From the NCBI GenBank assembly GCA_002163135.1, contig MAAN01000041.1, positions 62,001-126,000 of the forward strand: a stretch of DNA of 64,000 nt, given 5' to 3'. Below are positions 30,593 through 39,087 of the stretch, one piece after another; the first letter of the stretch is position 1, and each line of letters opens with the position of its first letter. The notes under the pieces are model-generated. The model was given only the letters and a program-made list of their open reading frames with translations. It was not told where the DNA came from and searched no databases. This DNA is from Alphaproteobacteria bacterium 46_93_T64 (GTDB lineage Bacteria > Pseudomonadota > Alphaproteobacteria > Sneathiellales > Sneathiellaceae). Both the position numbers and the translations under genes were made by a program.

Positions 30593-31063
30593 CTAGGAGA
30601 AAAATGAATGCTTTTGCGGTATTGGCTTCTGTGTAGACATTCCCACATTCATTTTACGAGATACCAGTTCAGCCTGAGGCGTTACATTAAAGTCTGCAAA
30701 AATTCGAATCTTTGAAACGTGATCGCCTGAAAACGTCCAGATTTGCATCCAGCTAGATGTCCAAAACATCTGACTTGTCGCCAGTTTGCATTTGGTGTCA
30801 CCACGAACAATCATTTTTTCGCATTCATAATGAAAATCGGACGGTGTAGCACTTATAAACTTAAGAAAATTGCCACAAATGCTGAATAGATTACGGGCGC
30901 CGTTTTTACCCATGAATGTTGCGGAATAGCTATCAGTGTATAATTGATTGCCAAGGCAAATGTGAATTTCTGCATCATCTGTCAGGTGATTTAGAAAGTC
31001 ATCTGGCGTGCCAGCCATTAAACTATCGAGGAATTCATACGCGATGTCATCTTTGTTCCGCAT
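30593..31063 (-). CDS. SnoaL/NTF2-like small protein
   Basis: 156 residues. The N-terminal helix (DIAYEFLDSLMAGTPDDFL), the DDAEIHI strand, and the alternating strands FHYECEKMIVRGDTKCKLA, MQIWTFSGDHVSKIRIFADF fit the NTF2-like cone fold. Members are enzymes or binding proteins of many kinds; no catalytic residues can be assigned. It stands alone between an EamA transporter and the molybdenum-hydroxylase terminator. Confidence 0.7.
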   Translation of the reverse strand: MRNKDDIAYEFLDSLMAGTPDDFLNHLTDDAEIHICLGNQLYTDSYSATFMGKNGARNLFSICGNFLKFISATPSDFHYECEKMIVRGDTKCKLATSQMFWTSSWMQIWTFSGDHVSKIRIFADFNVTPQAELVSRKMNVGMSTQKPIPQKHSFFS

Positions 31064-31164
31064 TCGACTATGCCTCTCTTTGACCCATTAGGTGTTTTGA
31101 AGAGTACACATTACTTAATTAGTTCTTACTTATATATTCACCCAATTTTCAAAAAAATCAAAGA

Positions 31165-31200
31165 AAAACCTCAGAAAAAGCGAACTTTTTTTGAGGTTTT
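31165..31200 (-). terminator. Terminator after the molybdenum-hydroxylase gene
   Basis: AAAACCTCA (31165-31173) pairs with TGAGGTTTT (31192-31200), and an inner AAAAAG/CTTTTT (31175-31180, 31185-31190) closes around the CGAA loop, with one mismatch. The minus strand continues into a T-rich tract. Confidence 0.7.
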
Positions 31201-31232
31201 CCAAATCAACAGTCTAAAACCGTGAGTTATAC

Positions 31233-33572
31233 TTATGTATTAAGAAGATTCCATATTTTCTGCGGTGTCGCTGGCATATCGATATGGCTAATACCTTTAT
31301 CTTTAAGTGCATCAATGGTTGCATTTATGATCGCTGGTGGTGCTGCGATGCAGCCTGCTTCCCCGCAACCTTTGACACCCATCGGGTTCATCGTGCATGG
31401 AATATCGATAGTTTCATATTGAAGATCCATAGGGATATTGTCGGCCCTAGGCATACCATAATCCATGAATGAGCCTGTAAGTAATTGCCCACCTTCATCA
31501 TAGACCGTGTTTTCAGTAAGGGCTTGTCCGACGCCCTGTCCAATGCCACCAACTACCTGATGGCGAACCAATGCTGGGTTTACAATGGTTCCAAAATCAT
31601 CAACGATGATGTAACGCACCACGTCTGTTGCACCAGTATCGGGATCGATCTCTACTTCAGCAATATGGCATCCGTTGGGGTAGGTGAAAGCCTCTACAGT
31701 AAAGCTGGCTTCACTATCAAGTCCTTCTTCCAATCCTTCGGGGAGTTGGCCAAGGCCACGTGCCCGTTGCGCCATTTCAAGAATGCCGATTTTGCGGTCG
31801 GTTCCGGCAATGGAGAATTCACCTTCCTCAGCTGAAAATTCGATATCTTGCTGTGCGGCCTCAAGAAAATGTCCAGCTAGCTGCATGCCCTTATTAATGA
31901 CTTCATCACTGGCTGCATGAATGGCAGGGCCTTGAGTGGTCAAAGATCGCGATCCACCCGTGCCGCCGCCAGTTTTAATTTTGTCGGTATCACCCTGAAT
32001 AATGCGGATGTTTTCAAATGGGACACCCAAACGTTCAGCCAGAATTTGGGCGTACGCAGTGGCATGCCCCTGACCGCTGGATTGGGTGCCAACGGCCAAC
32101 GATACTATGTCATTTTCTTCAAAGCGAACCAATGCTGTTTCGCTAGGGTTTCCGGCAGTCGCTTCGATATAGTAACACATACCTATCCCACGGATTTTGC
32201 CAGAGTCTGCTGATTGTGTTTTGCGCGTCTCAAATTTAGCCCATTCTGAATTTTCAAGAGCTTTGTCCATCAAACGTTCAAATTCACCGCTGTCATAGAC
32301 GCAGCCAGTTGCAGTTTTGTAGGGGATCGCGGATACAGGAATAAAGTTTTTCCGGCGAATTTCATCAGGCCCGAGGCCCAGTTCATTTGCAGCAACATCC
32401 ATTAATCTCTCAATGACATAAATGGCTTCAGGTCTTCCGGCGCCGCGATAAGCATCAACAGGAACTGTATTTGTGAACACACCAACACAATGATAGTAGA
32501 GCGCAGGAATATCATAAACACCGGGAAGAACTTTTACCGCTGCCATAGTCGGGATCATAGGGCCAAACGTGGATAAATACGCCCCAAGATTTGCATTGGT
32601 CTGAACGCGCATACCTAGAATTTTATGATCTGTATCAAAGGCTAGGGAAGCTGTCGTCGTGTGGTCACGCCCATGGGTGTCTGAAAGGAAAGCATCACTG
32701 CGCTCTCCCATCCATTTGATCGGGCGTCCAATTTTACGGCTGGCCCAAACTGTCGCCACGCATTCAGAATAGAAAAATAGCTTCATGCCAAATGCGCCGC
32801 CAACATCAGGCGTGATTACTCTGATCTGGTCTTCAGGAATATGGAGAACTGCTTTGGCTAGAAGCGACTTCGTCACCCAACCACCCTGTGTTCCCATACG
32901 GACGGTCATTTTCTCGTTTTCCGTATCCCAGTCGGCGATAACACCCCGAGGCTCCATGGAATTAACGACCACTCGATTATTGATCAAATCAAGAGTTGTA
33001 ACGTGAGCTGCAGTTTCGAAAATAGTGTTCAGATCCGTCTCGGAGCCCTGTTCCCAATCAAAAGCGACATTATTCGTGATATCGCTATGGACGAGAGGTT
33101 GCCCGGCATCATTTGCAGTTTTGGTATTAGTAACAACGCCCAGTTCATCAAAATCCACATCAATCAGTTCTGCGGCATCTTTGGCCTGATCAAGAGTTTC
33201 GGCAACAATAAAAGCGATGTTATCACCGACATATCGCACTTCGTCGATTGCCATAACAGGATGGCCCGGATCAGCTCGATTGCTACCGTCCCTGTTTTTG
33301 AGCGGGATCATGCAGGGGCGCTGGTTAGCATTATCAGCAGCAAGTTCCGTCCCGACAATAATATCCACAACACCAGGAGCATCGCGCGCATCATCAATAT
33401 CCAGTGACAGAATTTTACCATGTGCAATTGGAGATCGCAGCATAAACCCGTAGAGTTGGTTTGGTAAATTTATGTCGTCTGTATATTGTCCAGCACCAGT
33501 GATTAACCGATCATCTTCGACACGGTTTACAGACTGGTTTACACCAAATTTGACCATTTTTTTATCGTCCAT
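31233..33572 (-). CDS. Molybdenum hydroxylase large subunit (xanthine dehydrogenase / form II CoxL-like)
   Basis: 779 residues with the aldehyde oxidase/xanthine dehydrogenase a/b-hammerhead N-terminus (VEDDRLITGAGQYTDDI) and the molybdopterin-binding core: DVGGAFGMK at 256-263, AYRGAGR at 374-380, and GCGEAG with the catalytic Glu738. AYRGAGR is the form II pattern; the true CO dehydrogenase AYXCSFR is absent, so CO oxidation is not supported. Such subunits hydroxylate aldehydes or N-heteroaromatic rings and normally need an FAD subunit and a 2Fe-2S subunit, neither of which is encoded nearby. It is the last gene of the CoA-enzyme series and ends at a strong terminator. Confidence 0.93.
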   Translation of the reverse strand: MDDKKMVKFGVNQSVNRVEDDRLITGAGQYTDDINLPNQLYGFMLRSPIAHGKILSLDIDDARDAPGVVDIIVGTELAADNANQRPCMIPLKNRDGSNRADPGHPVMAIDEVRYVGDNIAFIVAETLDQAKDAAELIDVDFDELGVVTNTKTANDAGQPLVHSDITNNVAFDWEQGSETDLNTIFETAAHVTTLDLINNRVVVNSMEPRGVIADWDTENEKMTVRMGTQGGWVTKSLLAKAVLHIPEDQIRVITPDVGGAFGMKLFFYSECVATVWASRKIGRPIKWMGERSDAFLSDTHGRDHTTTASLAFDTDHKILGMRVQTNANLGAYLSTFGPMIPTMAAVKVLPGVYDIPALYYHCVGVFTNTVPVDAYRGAGRPEAIYVIERLMDVAANELGLGPDEIRRKNFIPVSAIPYKTATGCVYDSGEFERLMDKALENSEWAKFETRKTQSADSGKIRGIGMCYYIEATAGNPSETALVRFEENDIVSLAVGTQSSGQGHATAYAQILAERLGVPFENIRIIQGDTDKIKTGGGTGGSRSLTTQGPAIHAASDEVINKGMQLAGHFLEAAQQDIEFSAEEGEFSIAGTDRKIGILEMAQRARGLGQLPEGLEEGLDSEASFTVEAFTYPNGCHIAEVEIDPDTGATDVVRYIIVDDFGTIVNPALVRHQVVGGIGQGVGQALTENTVYDEGGQLLTGSFMDYGMPRADNIPMDLQYETIDIPCTMNPMGVKGCGEAGCIAAPPAIINATIDALKDKGISHIDMPATPQKIWNLLNT

Positions 33573-33642
33573 TTTTTGATGAAGAGCTATGCGTAAGGAA
33601 AGCTCTCATTAGATTATGCGCCCGGATTTTTTCTTTAGGTTG

Positions 33643-34842
33643 TTATTGCTTCGGATTTTCCCAAACAATACCGTCCTGAGTCAATGCTGTAATGTCATTT
33701 TCGTCATATCCGATCTCCTTAAGTATCTCCCGGCCGTTTGCTCCAAATCCCGGTGGAACAGATCTAACCTTTCCTGGAGTTCGGCTCATTTTAACGGCTA
33801 TACCAGTTCCGGAATACCCATCTTTCTCAACTATCATTTCTCGATGCTTGGTGTGCGGGTGGTTCAGTGCTTCAGGTACAGTCATGGCTGCACCTGCAGG
33901 AACGCCTGCCTCTAGCAGAACTGTTGCAAACTCGACCCCGTCTTTATCCGCAAGTTTTTCTTCTAACAGCTTGTTGAGTGTGTCTCGATTTGCAAGACGA
34001 GCTGAGTTATCAATATAGCGCGGATCAGAGGGAACTGCCGGGCATGCTAACGCTGCACAAAGCTTACGAAACTGTCCGTTATTACCAATACCTAAGAAAA
34101 TAGGAGCTGTTTGGGTTTTGTATAGGTCGTATGGGGCGATATTCGGGTGAGAATTTCCGGTGAGAACAGGTGCTTTTCCACTCATCAAGTTGTTGGGCGC
34201 ATGGGGGTGTTGTAGTTGAATGCCAGTATCATATAACGACGCCTCAACCGACTGTCCTTTTCCTGAAGTGTGACGCTCGTTTACGGCCATCAAAATGCCA
34301 ATAACCGCATTCATACCTGTTCCCAGATCAACAAGTGGTATGCCAATACGTACGGGACCCGATTCTGGGGATCCGTTCACACTGATGAGACCGGCCCATG
34401 CTTGAATAACCGCATCGTATCCTGGAAAACCACCAAAAGGCCCATCAGCACCAAATCCTGTAACCCGGCAATGAATTAAACGTGGAAATTTTTCTCGCAG
34501 CACCTCTTCATAACCAATGTCCCATTTTTCGAGAGACCCTGTTTTGAAGTTTTCGACCATGACATCGGCATCTTCTAACAGTTTGAGGAGAATTTCTTTT
34601 CCTTTTTCATCCCTAATGTCCAAGGAAATTGAGCGTTTATTACGATTTGCGCCAGAAAAATAGGCTGAAATACCATCCTCATTGAAAGGAGGGCCCCAGA
34701 GCCGCGTCTCGTCACCTTGCGGGGGCTCAATCTTGATCACTTCGGCACCGTGGTCAGCTAAAATTTGCGTGCAGAATGGGCCGCCTAGAACGCGAGACAG
34801 ATCAATTACTTTGAGGCCGGAAAGGGCACCATTACTAGACAT
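33643..34842 (-). CDS. CaiB/BaiF-type family III CoA-transferase
   Basis: 399 residues. Typical features are LKVIDLSRVLGGPFCTQILADHGAEVIKIE at the start (quoted in part: DLSRVLGGPFCTQILADHG), then DETRLWGPPF, the NRNKRSISLDI region, and VDLGTGMNAVIG with the catalytic-Asp region. It transfers CoA between carboxylic acids such as succinate and an aromatic or hydroxy acid. It lies between the GctB-like gene and the molybdenum hydroxylase on the same strand with gaps of 60-70 bases, so it is probably co-transcribed. Substrate unknown. Confidence 0.93.
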   Translation of the reverse strand: MSSNGALSGLKVIDLSRVLGGPFCTQILADHGAEVIKIEPPQGDETRLWGPPFNEDGISAYFSGANRNKRSISLDIRDEKGKEILLKLLEDADVMVENFKTGSLEKWDIGYEEVLREKFPRLIHCRVTGFGADGPFGGFPGYDAVIQAWAGLISVNGSPESGPVRIGIPLVDLGTGMNAVIGILMAVNERHTSGKGQSVEASLYDTGIQLQHPHAPNNLMSGKAPVLTGNSHPNIAPYDLYKTQTAPIFLGIGNNGQFRKLCAALACPAVPSDPRYIDNSARLANRDTLNKLLEEKLADKDGVEFATVLLEAGVPAGAAMTVPEALNHPHTKHREMIVEKDGYSGTGIAVKMSRTPGKVRSVPPGFGANGREILKEIGYDENDITALTQDGIVWENPKQ

Positions 34843-34902
34843 TGTATTTGTGTATCCTTCGAAAGGTTTCTTCTTGTTATATAGTTGTTTTTCTAAGAAG
34901 GC

Positions 34903-35631
34903 TCAATTTACAAATATGGTTTGAGCAAATTGTGGATAGACATCTTTTATTTTTGCAGAGACCTCATTGTCCAGAACAGTTAGAAGTTCTGGATCTGGAG
35001 CGGCTGTGATCGGCGTATCTTTTTCATAGTCAAACGCAAAGCCAGTATTATCCAGAATATCTTCGAGAGAACTGTTTGAGTGGATGCTTTTTAAAGAAAA
35101 TCGTTTTTCGTTTTTATTAAACTTGAAGAAAGCTTTGTTCGTTAGCAGACCAAAAGGGCCGCCGGTACGGTAAGTATTGTCGTCGCTAGTGCCAGGCGCG
35201 CTAATAAAATCGACCTTATCGACAAGAACCCTTCTCGTATGTTCTTCGCGAAAAAGAATGACTTTGGGGATGAGGAAATACAGATAGGCGGATCCAAATG
35301 TACCGGGCCATCTGGGGGTGTTGAGCGGGTATTCTCCGCGTCCCATCAAATTGATATTGGCCGCGCCATCTATTTGGCCACCGCCAAGGAAGAAAGCATC
35401 AATCCGTCCTTGAGCTGCGCAATCAAAAAGTTCCTGCGAGCCATTGGTGAAAAAGTTGTTTTTGGTGGAGCCTAGGATATTAACATGCCGCGGAGAAGAC
35501 CAAACCGCTTTCGCCAACAATGCGGCGGCCCCAGGAATAGGAGAGGAGGCGCCAACTGCGACGTGATTACAATCTCGAAGGAGTTTTGCGATAAAGCAAA
35601 TTAGTGCTTTCTTTTGTGATGCAGCAGTCAT
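34903..35631 (-). CDS. GctB-like CoA-transferase family I, beta subunit (catalytic Glu missing)
   Basis: 242 residues aligning end to end with glutaconate CoA-transferase subunit B (FLGGGQIDGAANINLMGRG, then KVDFISAPGTSDDN, and SLEDILDNTGFAFD). In the known enzyme a Glu (Glu54 in VESG) forms the CoA thioester intermediate. Here the equivalent stretch is NILGST at 51-56, without Glu. The mycobacterial IpdAB pair also lacks that Glu and is a hydrolase, so this protein may hydrolyse or open a CoA-linked ring rather than transfer CoA. Its gene overlaps the GctA-like gene (ATGA at 35628-35631). Confidence 0.85.
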   Translation of the reverse strand: MTAASQKKALICFIAKLLRDCNHVAVGASSPIPGAAALLAKAVWSSPRHVNILGSTKNNFFTNGSQELFDCAAQGRIDAFFLGGGQIDGAANINLMGRGEYPLNTPRWPGTFGSAYLYFLIPKVILFREEHTRRVLVDKVDFISAPGTSDDNTYRTGGPFGLLTNKAFFKFNKNEKRFSLKSIHSNSSLEDILDNTGFAFDYEKDTPITAAPDPELLTVLDNEVSAKIKDVYPQFAQTIFVN

Positions 35632-36440
35632 GATTTCTCTCCGGAGTATACGAATTTCTGGAGATATTCATTGAAGCCTTCTTCTGTGGCAGCCATCGTT
35701 TTATATAAGTTGAGATGTTCACTGTCTTCTGAACCTCCTTGCCAAAACGCAAGAGGCCACGTCCCTGATGGGACTTCGGCAATCGCACCTACATAAAGAC
35801 TTGGTAAGACGCCCGCAGCCAGCTCTTCATCATCGAGCAAGTTGCCCTCAATAATCTTTTCAACGGTGACATAGGCAGTTTTAGAGGCTTGTGCCATATT
35901 GATTTGTTCCCGGCGACGGCCAACCCATACGTTGCCCTCTTGATCAGCTAACGGTGCGTGAAACAGGGCCGCATCTGGTTGAATTGCCGGAATGGCAACG
36001 ATTTTGTCTTCCGTATCTGAGAACGGATTTTGAATTACTTTCCAATCAGGATGATTATTTAGAATGTCGCTGCCGATTATTCCGCGTAGCGGCATAAAGG
36101 GGAGGCCTTTTTGGGAAGCTTGCAAGGCAGCATGTATTGCTGGACACGTTGCGTCCACGATCTTGACGCTTCCTTCATTAATCGCCGCACTAAATCTTGG
36201 CGCAGGATTGTATTCTCCTAACGTGAGGGCGGAGCTTTCGAAAATTGAAACGCAGCCTGCGCCAATTAGCAACTCAGCTTGTAATCCTGATGTAGGGACG
36301 CCGATAAGGTGAAGGTTTTTAGTGCCTTGACGAATGATCTGGCGTGTCGCTTCCATCGCAATACCGCTATAATCTGCCGGAACGGCGAGTTTAAAGCCGT
36401 CTTTAATGTGCGCGGTGAGGGCCTCAATAGACGTGAGCAT
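35628..36440 (-). CDS. GctA-like CoA-transferase family I, alpha subunit
   Basis: 270 residues related to glutaconate CoA-transferase subunit A: DGFKLAVPADYSGIAMEATR, NLHLIGVPTSGLQAELLIGAG, GLPFMPLRGIIGSDIL, PFSDTEDKIVAIPAIQPDAA and the LADQEGNVWVGRRREQ region. It would pair with the beta subunit as a heterodimer or heterotetramer. It heads the CoA-enzyme part of the series, 15 bases downstream of the TIGR02186 gene. The partner's missing catalytic Glu makes the reaction uncertain. Confidence 0.88.
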   Translation of the reverse strand: MLTSIEALTAHIKDGFKLAVPADYSGIAMEATRQIIRQGTKNLHLIGVPTSGLQAELLIGAGCVSIFESSALTLGEYNPAPRFSAAINEGSVKIVDATCPAIHAALQASQKGLPFMPLRGIIGSDILNNHPDWKVIQNPFSDTEDKIVAIPAIQPDAALFHAPLADQEGNVWVGRRREQINMAQASKTAYVTVEKIIEGNLLDDEELAAGVLPSLYVGAIAEVPSGTWPLAFWQGGSEDSEHLNLYKTMAATEEGFNEYLQKFVYSGEKS

Positions 36441-36455
36441 TTTTTTTGTTTTCCT

Positions 36456-37229
36456 TTAGTCTTTGCGAAATATAGCAGACGCGATCCATCCTGCAATCAG
36501 GGCTAATAATATTGCAGCAATTCCGTGCAATATTGGGTAGCTCTGCGCAAACTCAAAAATTTGGCGGCCAATCCCAAATTTTTTAATGAAAAGTGGAGAT
36601 GTCTGGGCGCTGATAAGTTCGCCGTCCTGTAGCAGATAAACTTCTGCGACATAGTTCCCGACCGGTACGTTTGCCGGAAAGTGGATGGAGGTTCTGAAAA
36701 GGGACGCCCCAAGAAAATAAACAGCAGTTTGATTGCTCGTATATAGCTCCACATTTGTTTGTTTTCGGACAATTGCCTGCTTGAAGTCCTGTAGATCTTT
36801 TGGCTCGGATTTCGAGGAAAAATTTAGCCGATTGGGCCCGATTCTGAGTCTTTCCAGCGTCCCGGGCGGTGCTATTTCATCAACGGGACGATTGCTGGCA
36901 ATAGCGTAAAAACCTGGAACCTTGCTGATTTCAATCGAACGTGTGTTTACCCAAATACCAGCGACACGCTCTTTCTTTCGAACAGTTACTTCCTTTTGCG
37001 GACCTCTGACAACGACAATTATATCACCATGGTCAGCAGGAGCGGCGCCTTCAGCTGATGTGACCGTTCCAAATAAAAGGAGATCTGTTCCCGTAAAATC
37101 GGAGGTTACTGAAATCAAATGCGATGAAATGTCAGTGACTAAAGTGTTATCGGCGCTAGCCGGTAGTATGCGTACAAAACATGTGAGAGCAGCAAGTAGG
37201 AGCAGTAAAGAGCGAACGGTTCCCGTCAT
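36456..37229 (-). CDS. TIGR02186-type membrane-anchored periplasmic protein
   Basis: 257 residues from the ATG at 37229, one base after the stop of the exporter gene. An N-terminal signal (SLLLLLAALTCFVRILPASA) is followed by a periplasmic beta-rich domain (SHLISVTSDFTGTDLLLFG, IIVVVRGPQKEVTVRKKERV, GIWVNTRSIEISKVPGFYAI) and a C-terminal membrane segment (ILHGIAAILLALIAGWIASA). This pattern and the pairing with a TSUP exporter fit TIGR02186. The family is described only as conserved and transmembrane; it probably works with the exporter. An in-frame start at 37292 lies inside the exporter gene and is rejected. Confidence 0.82.
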   Translation of the reverse strand: MTGTVRSLLLLLAALTCFVRILPASADNTLVTDISSHLISVTSDFTGTDLLLFGTVTSAEGAAPADHGDIIVVVRGPQKEVTVRKKERVAGIWVNTRSIEISKVPGFYAIASNRPVDEIAPPGTLERLRIGPNRLNFSSKSEPKDLQDFKQAIVRKQTNVELYTSNQTAVYFLGASLFRTSIHFPANVPVGNYVAEVYLLQDGELISAQTSPLFIKKFGIGRQIFEFAQSYPILHGIAAILLALIAGWIASAIFRKD

Positions 37230-37230
37230 C

Positions 37231-38154
37231 TTAGTGGGTTCCCTCCACAAATGTGAACGAGAAAAGGTCATCTGGTGTGAGCACAAGGTCAAAAGCCAAT
37301 TTGGCGCATACGAGCAAAACCATAAGCCCCAAAAGGGAGCGTAATTGTTCCCCTTTCATCTTGGTCCCAATTCGAGTGCCAATTTGGGCCCCTATCACAG
37401 CACTGCTCATAAGCAGAAGGGCAAGCAAAACATCAACAGTTTGTGTGGTTACAGAGTGTAAGAAGGTTACGTTAGCCGTGACAAAGATAATCTGAAAAAG
37501 GCTGGTGCCAATCACAATGGACGTTGGCATTCCCATAAGATAGATCATGGCAGGAACCATCACAAAACCGCCACCAACACCCATAATTGCAGATAAAATG
37601 CCAACAAAGAACCCAAGCACTAGCGGCAATAAAGCGCTGATGTAGAGTTTCGATTTTCGAAACCGCATCTTAAACGGCAGGCCATGGATCCAATAATGTT
37701 GGTGTAGTTTTTTCCGCTTTACCGTGCCTTTGCGGCTTCGAAGCAGGGCGCCAACGCTCTCCACCATCATCAGGCCGCCAATGACACCCAAAAATAGAAC
37801 GTAGGACAAAGAAATTAGCAGATCAACTTGTCCTGCGCTTTTCAATAGTGCAAAAATCCAGGTGCCGAGCGCAGAGCCAACAACGCCGCCAACGAGCAGA
37901 ACAGTCCCCATTTTGAAATCAACATTGCCGCGCCGCCAATGGGCGAGAACACCAGAAACACTTGCGGCAATCAATTGGTTTGCGCCAGTGGCAACGGCAA
38001 CGGCGGGCGGTATCCCAATGAAGATGAGAAGTGGCGTCATTAAAAAACCGCCACCAACACCAAACATACCGGAAAGCAGACCAACAGCTCCGCCCATGCC
38101 TAAAATCAGGAATAAATTCACTGAAATTTCGGCAATTGGAAGATAGACTGGCAT
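37231..38154 (-). CDS. Sulfite exporter TauE/SafE (TSUP) family permease
   Basis: 307 residues with eight or so hydrophobic segments in two repeats, each with the GVGGGF signature (GMFGVGGGFLMTPLLIFIG and IMGVGGGFVMVPAMIYLMG). TSUP members move sulfite, sulfoacetate, taurine or other sulfonates across the inner membrane. It is followed within one base by a TIGR02186 gene and preceded by an ArsR/BigR-like regulator, a pairing known from sulfide/sulfite handling loci. The cargo is inferred from family. Confidence 0.92.
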   Translation of the reverse strand: MPVYLPIAEISVNLFLILGMGGAVGLLSGMFGVGGGFLMTPLLIFIGIPPAVAVATGANQLIAASVSGVLAHWRRGNVDFKMGTVLLVGGVVGSALGTWIFALLKSAGQVDLLISLSYVLFLGVIGGLMMVESVGALLRSRKGTVKRKKLHQHYWIHGLPFKMRFRKSKLYISALLPLVLGFFVGILSAIMGVGGGFVMVPAMIYLMGMPTSIVIGTSLFQIIFVTANVTFLHSVTTQTVDVLLALLLMSSAVIGAQIGTRIGTKMKGEQLRSLLGLMVLLVCAKLAFDLVLTPDDLFSFTFVEGTH

Positions 38155-38205
38155 ATGGGCGTTGACCCTGAATAGAACTGATGAAGGTGTTGTTAGTTCA
38201 GCCTA

Positions 38206-38229
38206 TACAATAAATCCGTTGCAATTGTA
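38206..38229. promoter_or_regulatory. Inverted repeat upstream of the exporter gene
   Basis: TACAAT and ATTGTA arms separated by 12 bases, in the AT-rich gap between the ArsR-like gene and the exporter. It could be the ArsR-like regulator's operator; binding is a guess. Confidence 0.3.
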
Positions 38230-38278
38230 ATAACTTGATGACGAAAAATGTAAAAATTTTCACCATCCCCCCAAATTA

Positions 38279-38590
38279 TTAAGCTGCCATCTGTACAGAA
38301 AGCAATAAGTTCCGGATATTTTCACTATACAAAGAATAGTAAATGGTTTGAGCTTCCCGGCGGGTAGTGACAATGTCATCTCTACGAAGTCTTCCCAAGT
38401 GCTGAGAGAGTGCTGACTGGCTGATATTTATTTTTCTTTCCAGTTGACCAACAGATAGCTCTTGCTCTGACAGGCATGTCAGTATTTCAAGGCGTCTCTG
38501 GTTTCCTAGAGATTTTAGTATTTTACTCGCCTTGTAAAGAGAGCTGAATAGCTGAGTGTAATCTTTCTCGATGTGATTGATGTTGTTCAT
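38279..38590 (-). CDS. ArsR-family regulator (BigR/SqrR-like)
   Basis: 103 residues, a winged helix-turn-helix with SLGNQRRLEILTCLSEQELSVGQLERKINISQSALSQHLGRLR (read in parts: LGNQRRLEILTCLSEQ, SQSALSQHLGRLR, TTRREAQTIYYSL). This resembles BigR and SqrR, which sense reactive sulfur with two cysteines. Only one Cys (in ILTCLSEQ) is present; the C-terminal partner Cys is missing. It lies directly upstream of a TSUP exporter on the same strand, so it likely controls that operon. Confidence 0.88.
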   Translation of the reverse strand: MNNINHIEKDYTQLFSSLYKASKILKSLGNQRRLEILTCLSEQELSVGQLERKINISQSALSQHLGRLRRDDIVTTRREAQTIYYSLYSENIRNLLLSVQMAA

Positions 38591-38634: not shown

Positions 38635-38964
38635 CTATCTAACACTATAAAGTTTTAATTCTTTGCCAATATTCCCACTTAACCACAATAGGTACATTCT
38701 AAAATCGCTAATGAGTGACCAAAAGGGATAATCGAATGTTGCAGGTCTGTTTTTCTCAATGAAAAAATGCCCAATCCATGCGGGTCCATATCCACATAGA
38801 ACAGATGCTGCAATATAAGCTGGTGACTTAGTGACTAAGAAGACGACTAAAATTACAAGGGCGAGTGTTGTCCCGCCATAGTGGAGCAATCTGCAAACCG
38901 GATTGGAATGCTCCCCCAAATAATAGGGCCAGAATTCCTTGTACGTGGAAAACCTTTTTGGCAT
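38635..38964 (-). CDS. Mpo1-like/DUF962 membrane protein
   Basis: 109 residues from the ATG at 38964, with a GGAAGG ribosome-binding site. Family signature is clear: YYLGEHSNPVCRLLHYGGTT (His-containing), then PAWIGHFFIEKNRPATFDYP. Two membrane segments lie between. Yeast Mpo1 of this family is an iron-dependent dioxygenase acting on 2-hydroxy fatty acids; the conserved HxxxN-type histidines (HSN, HYGG, HFFIEKN) are present. The bacterial role may be odd-chain or hydroxy fatty acid breakdown, fitting the fatty-acid genes to the right. Confidence 0.85.
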   Translation of the reverse strand: MPKRFSTYKEFWPYYLGEHSNPVCRLLHYGGTTLALVILVVFLVTKSPAYIAASVLCGYGPAWIGHFFIEKNRPATFDYPFWSLISDFRMYLLWLSGNIGKELKLYSVR

Positions 38965-39087
38965 CTTACGCACCTTCCCCCATGCGCATAAGTTTCATTA
39001 ATGCGCGTTATGATATCAAATACTTTTCATAAATGCACCTATTTGTAGGCTACATTTCAAATTTTATTCCGTTGACGTAAACGGAAG

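Follow-up and report, generated by a model that had tools for sequence, protein, structure and literature searches.

A stand-alone molybdenum-hydroxylase subunit and a cysteine-bearing, CoA-transferase-fold enzyme in a putative catabolic operon of Sneathiellaceae

In the usual view, a molybdenum hydroxylase is a fixed complex of S, L and M subunits. The present study concerns a 64,000-nucleotide stretch of DNA (the window) from the marine Alphaproteobacteria bacterium 46_93_T64, a Sneathiella of the family Sneathiellaceae (contig MAAN01000041.1, positions 62,001 to 126,000), in which a catalytic L subunit, here called MoHL, is encoded with neither S nor M in cis. It is preceded by genes for a CaiB-type CoA-transferase, for a GctA/GctB-like pair (GctAB) and for a putative sulfur exporter pair with its regulator. 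The closest described systems are, for MoHL, the form II 'CO dehydrogenase' S-L-M clusters, for the regulator and exporter, the BigR-TSUP sulfide/sulfite loci and, for the GctA/GctB-like pair, three enzymes sharing the class I CoA-transferase fold. The catalytic glutamate of glutaconate CoA-transferase (GCT) is Glu54 of its β subunit (PMC5380842), whereas this residue has been lost in the decarboxylase AibAB, which carries Cys56 of the β subunit in its place (PMC7756340), and in the retro-aldol hydrolase IpdAB (PMC7756340, PMC5380842).

Compared with these systems, the locus suggests that in Alphaproteobacteria an S-M pair with its own maturation genes may serve several interchangeable, scattered L subunits, one of which would share its operon here with CaiB and with a new enzyme of CoA-transferase fold that lacks the Glu and carries a Cys; we see about an even chance that this is correct. 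Neither this combination of genes nor the use of one S-M pair by several L subunits was found described in the literature within reach, most subscription papers being out of reach.

MoHL (positions 31233 to 33572, minus strand) contains the MoCoBD domains of the xanthine oxidase family, according to Pfam and NCBIfam. The active-site glutamate is present in what we take to be the GxGE motif, and the loop reads AYRGAGR and not AYxCSFR, presumably the motif with the Cu-binding cysteine, so that the enzyme does not qualify as a form I Mo-Cu CO dehydrogenase. The nearest complete cluster stands at C24 of the same 4.0 Mb genome (G000), in the order S-L-M-AAA-CoxE-XdhC_CoxI-XdhC_C-MobA. Its L is about 49-50% identical to MoHL, which is of the AYRGAGR type like the L of form II clusters; unlike these clusters, MoHL lacks S and M in cis. 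This genome encodes in total five L-type, four [2Fe-2S] (Fer2_2) and three FAD domains, and the L of the window is the only one that does not have an Fe-S partner, or more, in its vicinity. At 23 loci from 22 genomes (L069 repeating L050) with this L near GctAB, tblastn likewise revealed no S or M. With the exception of the distant L127, these linked L genes form one group beside the S-L-M L group (support 1.0). When more orphan L genes are added to the tree, linked and unlinked ones mix, the deep order being weakly supported, and one other orphan (in G072) groups with the S-L-M L genes.

Stand-alone L genes are common in Alphaproteobacteria. Among 30 L loci from other families, chosen as best matches to the window L, 21 had neither S nor M and nine had both; the stretch inspected on each side was about 1.5 kb, except that one locus offered 351 nt on one side. 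Similarly, 56 of 78 L matches of at least 42% identity in 28 genomes (lower matches being dropped) had no S within 3.5 kb among the S matches listed, and 22 had one. In G053, three tandem L genes of the MoHL family lie on one strand (G053:C21:26992-34142), the C24-type S-M cluster of that genome being without L. The surroundings of orphan L genes named no common substrate-indicating partner (Pfam, 63 of 75 listed open reading frames at 19 of 20 loci), the most frequent neighbors being inositol phosphatase (three) and class II aldolase (two).

The distribution of these genes connects MoHL-type L with S subunits of the kind found on C24. When a C24-type S was scored absent for want of any S of at least 60% identity and L was judged at E 1e-90, 41 of the 43 class genomes without C24-type S had no MoHL-type L; the L query matched 28/28 in the genome set where L was counted, versus 0/41. 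Orphan L genes occur in 20 of 22 genomes with the S-L-M set (SLM+) and in none of 30 without it (SLM-), among class genomes at least 90% complete (Fisher p 1.8e-12, relatedness ignored), and the difference persists among genomes of at least 3 Mb (19/20 versus 0/5, p 1.1e-4, relatedness likewise ignored). In addition, an M subunit of 60-68% identity was found in all six genomes outside Sneathiella in which a MoHL-type L lies near GctAB. An association of GctAB itself with C24-type S, seen at class level (9/11 versus 17/58, G025 omitted), was gone at 3 Mb or more (9/1 versus 12/5, p 0.36) and was therefore rejected.

Paired losses within the genus point in the same direction. GctAB occurs in 20 other same-genus genomes, from which 18 loci (L035-L052) were compared, the loci of G008 and G017 not having been fetched whole. 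MoHL is present at 16 of the 18, the copy of L038 running off its contig, and is missing in L037 (G011) and L043 (G005). In both latter genomes the start codon region of MoHL is kept with different junctions, and no L of the MoHL group was found at 1e-60. MoHL and the S-L-M cluster disappeared together in each case, and the GctAB tree shows these to be two events; in G005 a truncated S is left, with XdhC_CoxI and MobA behind it. Eighteen Sneathiellaceae genomes with GctAB reach a completeness of 90% or more: 15 of them have MoHL and S-L-M, one has MoHL only (G008), two have neither and none has S-L-M only (p 0.02). Among less complete genomes, G004, G006 and G007 carry both L genes and G017 MoHL only. 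The S-L-M L is present in G013 and G020, where MoHL and GctAB are absent, and G010 shows an S match and no L.

The converse situation, S-M pairs without an L of their own, has also been found. In five genomes (G053, G072, G028, G051 and G063), about 4-27 nt and no L separate S from M, XdhC and MobA being present and the S and M frames being open to the C-terminal end. The fetched 16 kb contained no L of the MoHL type in four of the five, and no L at all in G053, G072 and G028. Since these S-M pairs have no L of their own, L is likely supplied from elsewhere. We infer from these observations that one S-M module is shared by scattered L subunits, which would pair with it in trans.

Several points weigh against this interpretation and the pathway built on it. 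L was found without C24-type S in G076 (87% complete, four L) and G087 (68%, two L), and without C24-type S or M in G008 (98% complete, 580 contigs) and G017 (56%). The genomes used for co-occurrence are interrelated, and the SLM+ ones are larger. The S-M pair of G051 adjoins a complete Mo-hydroxylase set, S and M included, that is more distantly related (27-30% identity in L), and the sole L of G063 stands at the other end of its S-M cluster, beyond XdhC and MobA. Outside the Sneathiellaceae, orphan L genes are mostly not near GctAB and their neighbors vary, and sulfur-related genes occur near GctAB-CaiB in other taxa. Finally, co-loss could stem from common maturation factors and not from common subunits.

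This last point leads to an alternative that we regard as unlikely: co-occurrence and co-loss would arise only through shared maturation (XdhC, MobA, CoxE/AAA), with MoHL using S and M of another Mo hydroxylase. The maturation genes do lie in the S-L-M cluster itself, XdhC and MobA accompany all five L-less S-M clusters, and G005 shows no match for L, M, AAA, CoxE or XdhC_C in the fetched 10 kb. However, G005 retains XdhC_CoxI and MobA matches while MoHL is gone, and in G072, G028, G051 and G063 S and M are still adjacent with no AAA or CoxE match in the fetched stretch. It is slightly less likely still that L acts alone or with an unrecognized partner, examples being a non-redox hydratase function or the use of a different electron acceptor. 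The frequency of stand-alone L genes would agree with such a possibility, as would the four genomes with L and no detected C24-type S (G008, G017, G076 and G087), but the absence of L from 41 of 43 class genomes without C24-type S, the S-M pairs with no L between them and the paired losses in Sneathiella speak against it.

Regarding its genomic context, MoHL is part of a conserved core, [MFS]-GctA-GctB-CaiB-Mo hydroxylase, the carrier gene being variably present. The proposal of the sequence-only reading that the CoA-enzyme and Mo-hydroxylase genes fit the breakdown of a CoA-activated acid is thus borne out to the extent that they constitute a conserved unit. CaiB (positions 33643 to 34842, minus strand) matches the family III profile and has Asp172, which we take to be the counterpart of the catalytic Asp169 of formyl-CoA transferase. 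Branches in which it lies at most 4.5 kb from GctAB recur in many different parts of the GctAB tree. Of the 99 tips of this tree (outgroups included, 14 SAR116 near-duplicates omitted), 54 have CaiB (counted at 48% identity or more), 24 have MoHL within 9 kb and 43 have neither. GctAB ranges over Alpha- and Betaproteobacteria and single-cell SAR116 genomes and is annotated in plasmid records as CoA-transferase or CoA synthetase. Linkage of MoHL-type L to GctAB outside the Sneathiellaceae is occasional, being found in two (G025 and G083) of the 12 other class genomes with GctAB (G025, G031, G051, G053, G067, G076, G079, G080, G083, G087, G088 and G090, most of them drafts) and in L070, L106 and L133 among named loci. 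At L087 and 15 other SAR116 loci, GctAB has no CaiB match in the fetched stretches, and its neighbors at L087 encode a membrane protein with a VTT domain and a TPR protein. In S. glossodoripedis (L050/L069 and L173), neither CaiB nor the S-L-M L gene runs in a single frame, which may reflect assembly errors.

On plasmids of Paracoccus, Sagittula, Pseudosulfitobacter and Cereibacter, the genes after GctAB-CaiB are those for 2-hydroxyacid dehydrogenase, class II aldolase, FGGY kinase, a thiamine pyrophosphate (TPP) enzyme and a Mo enzyme of the S/N-oxide reductase family. In Paracoccus and roseobacters (L148, L149, L150, L152, L154 and L155), this conserved plasmid cluster also comprises an ABC transporter and an IclR regulator. 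In Diaphorobacter, the surroundings of GctAB-CaiB comprise solute receptors of the tricarboxylate type along with genes for a TPP enzyme, aldehyde dehydrogenase and aminoacylase. An aldehyde to acid to acyl-CoA theme among these neighbors fits MoHL as an oxidizing step and names no substrate. No common substrate-naming partner emerged among the GctAB-CaiB neighbors (Pfam, 107 of 174 listed proteins at 19 of 28 loci), the most frequent being TctC (five), LysR (four), acyl-CoA dehydrogenase (three) and aldehyde dehydrogenase (two).

The genes upstream of the catabolic core encode an ArsR/SmtB-family regulator (positions 38279 to 38590), a TSUP (TauE/SafE) membrane exporter (37231 to 38154, PF01925 above cut-off) and a TIGR02186/Alph_Pro_TM membrane protein (36456 to 37229, the likely ATG being at 37229 and the open reading frame extending to 37292), all on the minus strand. 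The latter scores 265.3 against a cut-off of 24.5 with Pfam PF09608 and 223 bits, below the cut-off of 255.25, with the NCBIfam TIGR02186 model. Coordinates, family matches and a terminator hairpin corroborate the original description of seven minus-strand genes of these families with one terminator and gaps of 1, 15, -4, 60 and 70 nt from TSUP through MoHL; 124 nt separate ArsR from TSUP. As in BigR-TSUP loci, an ArsR-type regulator adjoins a TSUP exporter, and ArsR probably regulates the exporter pair. Its designation as "BigR-like" is imprecise, since it scores 71.9 against a cut-off of 155 with the BigR model and has one cysteine only, as against two regulatory cysteines, Cys42 and Cys108, in BigR (PMC5823870). 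The ArsR proteins of nine relatives have one cysteine at most.

The checks suggested by the sequence-only reading gave a divided result. TSUP and TIGR02186 lie upstream of GctA-GctB-CaiB at all 18 same-genus loci, and ArsR is present at nine; in this respect the linkage that had been predicted stands. An MFS gene of the L-lactate/oxalate-formate carrier type (scores below cut-off) intervenes between TIGR02186 and GctA at 15 of the 18, however, and outside the Sneathiellaceae TIGR02186 is near GctAB in none of the 12 class genomes (mostly drafts), being on another contig in 10, 489 kb away in one and missing from one, and the fetched GctAB flanks of these genomes contain neither TIGR02186 nor TSUP. 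Where MFS is present, TIGR02186 is separated from the next gene by about 63-144 nt, and in the window GctA is 15 nt away. The MFS-less loci (L035, L043 and L050) and the window form one clade of the GctAB tree; MFS was thus probably lost once, and this loss accounts for the tight TIGR02186-GctA join in the window. No hairpin above shuffles was detected by the folding test in the TIGR02186/GctA gap, nor in the GctB/CaiB and CaiB/MoHL gaps, and promoter-like matches in the gaps after TIGR02186 were only weakly above shuffles (139 in 18 pooled gaps versus a shuffle mean of 131.9, with 13 of 200 shuffles reaching 139).

The gene cluster is real, and its framing around a sulfur link is wrong: the exporter pair looks like a syntenic neighbor of the catabolic unit and not a member of it. 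We accordingly give little credence to a single organosulfur-acid pathway, in which CaiB and GctAB would process a sulfonate or sulfinate CoA ester, TSUP would export sulfite and ArsR would sense sulfur. Such a pathway would agree with the constant position of the exporter pair at same-genus loci and its 15-nt distance from GctA in the window, with the genes for cysteine dioxygenase and 3-sulfinopropanoyl-CoA desulfinase that lie, in Diaphorobacter, about 5-6 kb downstream of GctAB-CaiB, and with the S/N-oxide reductase family and rhodanese-domain genes of the Paracoccus cluster. It is opposed by the intervening MFS gene, by the presence of ArsR at only half of the loci, by the missing BigR cysteine pair and by L070, an unplaced alphaproteobacterial metagenome-assembled genome with TIGR02186, acyl-CoA dehydrogenase, MFS, GctAB and MoHL and no TSUP match. 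As TIGR02186 is widespread (69 of 95 genomes searched) and near GctAB in 0/12 class genomes, its distribution relative to GctAB does not support a single sulfur pathway for the whole locus, which we rejected; the supposed coupling to sulfite or sulfonate export is likewise not supported. The two Diaphorobacter sulfur genes are annotated as such on a plasmid (L151) whose gene clusters are shared by Comamonas and Bordetella loci (L096 and L109); a sulfur-acid substrate is possible in Betaproteobacteria.

The second distinctive component of the conserved core is GctAB. The GctA-like α subunit (positions 35628 to 36440) and the GctB-like β subunit (34903 to 35631), both on the minus strand, have the fold and subunit pairing of class I CoA-transferases according to Pfam, alignment and predicted structure (pLDDT, the predicted local distance difference test, of 90.0 for β and 94.6 for α). 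The best PDB sequence match of both subunits is GctAB itself (1POI). In the models, AibAB, IpdAB and GCT are the best matches (Z 22-24 for β, 31-32 for α), the 3-methylglutaconyl-CoA decarboxylase AibA/AibB of Myxococcus xanthus (5MZW) being the top match of each subunit by a margin of no more than about 1-1.6 Z over the other two. In the profile alignment to 1POI, the Glu54 segment falls in a gap of the window β subunit, and no Glu is conserved at β 50-66 in 112 sequences, near-duplicates included. Fold and subunit pair fit the GctA/GctB-like pair of the sequence-only reading; the identity as a CoA-transferase is not supported.

Instead, the α subunit has a Cys99 found in 107 of 110 sequences, together with conserved Glu68, Glu76 and Asp96. 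At the position aligned with Cys99, the IpdAB structure 6CO6 has Glu and 6COJ (titled E105A) has Ala; this position is IpdA Glu105, to which we presume a functional role. The pair thus resembles AibA/AibB as a Glu-less, two-subunit enzyme of the class I CoA-transferase fold, and differs from it by lacking the segment of AibB Cys56, by the α-Cys99 signature and by an identity of only 22-28%. Likewise, it shares fold and β-Glu loss with the COCHEA-CoA hydrolase IpdAB (6CO6, 6CON), the latter acting on a CoA-thioester substrate, and has Cys99 in place of IpdA Glu105. Since the β-Glu is absent, Cys99 is conserved and AibAB and IpdAB are among the best matches, sequences, models and analogy indicate that GctAB is probably a CoA-thioester decarboxylase or hydrolase and not an ordinary CoA-transferase, with Cys99 as its likely catalytic residue. 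An ordinary CoA-transferase whose catalytic acid has moved to another place, although compatible with the common fold and subunit pair and with the conserved Glu68, Glu76 and Asp96, is quite unlikely, as the β-Glu54 segment is missing, CaiB already provides a CoA-transferase and the kin AibAB and IpdAB, which lost the same Glu, are no transferases (PMC7756340, PMC5380842).

At the borders of the gene row, the intrinsic terminator after MoHL (about positions 31163 to 31202) is a hairpin of -18.8 kcal/mol followed by a T-run (z -2.2, with 6 of 200 shuffles folding equally well), absent from the output of a simpler terminator scan. Beyond it, a small conserved protein (30593 to 31063, minus strand), which by eye we take to be SnoaL/NTF2-like, has no Pfam or NCBIfam match. 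Its gene follows MoHL in several Sneathiella and is retained in both genomes that lost MoHL (G005 and G011). Upstream of ArsR, positions 38635 to 38973 encode another small protein, which clusters with proteins of 12-13 relatives and has no NCBIfam match.

Collectively, these data are best explained, in our judgment with somewhat better than even confidence, by a catabolic operon with S and M supplied in trans and a separate sulfur pair. [MFS]-GctA-GctB-CaiB-MoHL would degrade an organic acid imported by the MFS carrier, the latter having been lost in the subclade of the window. In a reaction order deduced from gene content and analogy, the Mo hydroxylase would oxidize a C-H or aldehyde group, CaiB would transfer CoA to the acid, and the GctAB-fold enzyme would then decarboxylate or hydrolyze the CoA thioester. 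MoHL would be the catalytic subunit only, electrons leaving through S and M from another locus, which carries the maturation genes XdhC and MobA, in some genomes with AAA and CoxE, and would serve several scattered L subunits. TSUP/TIGR02186 and ArsR would form a separate unit, placed upstream in Sneathiellaceae and tightly joined in the window by the loss of MFS.

The GctAB family is widespread, and its conserved α-Cys makes the mechanism directly testable. If L subunits do share S and M in trans, many 'CoxL-like' genes without an assigned role would be substrate-specific plug-ins, whose function could be read from the operons in which they lie.

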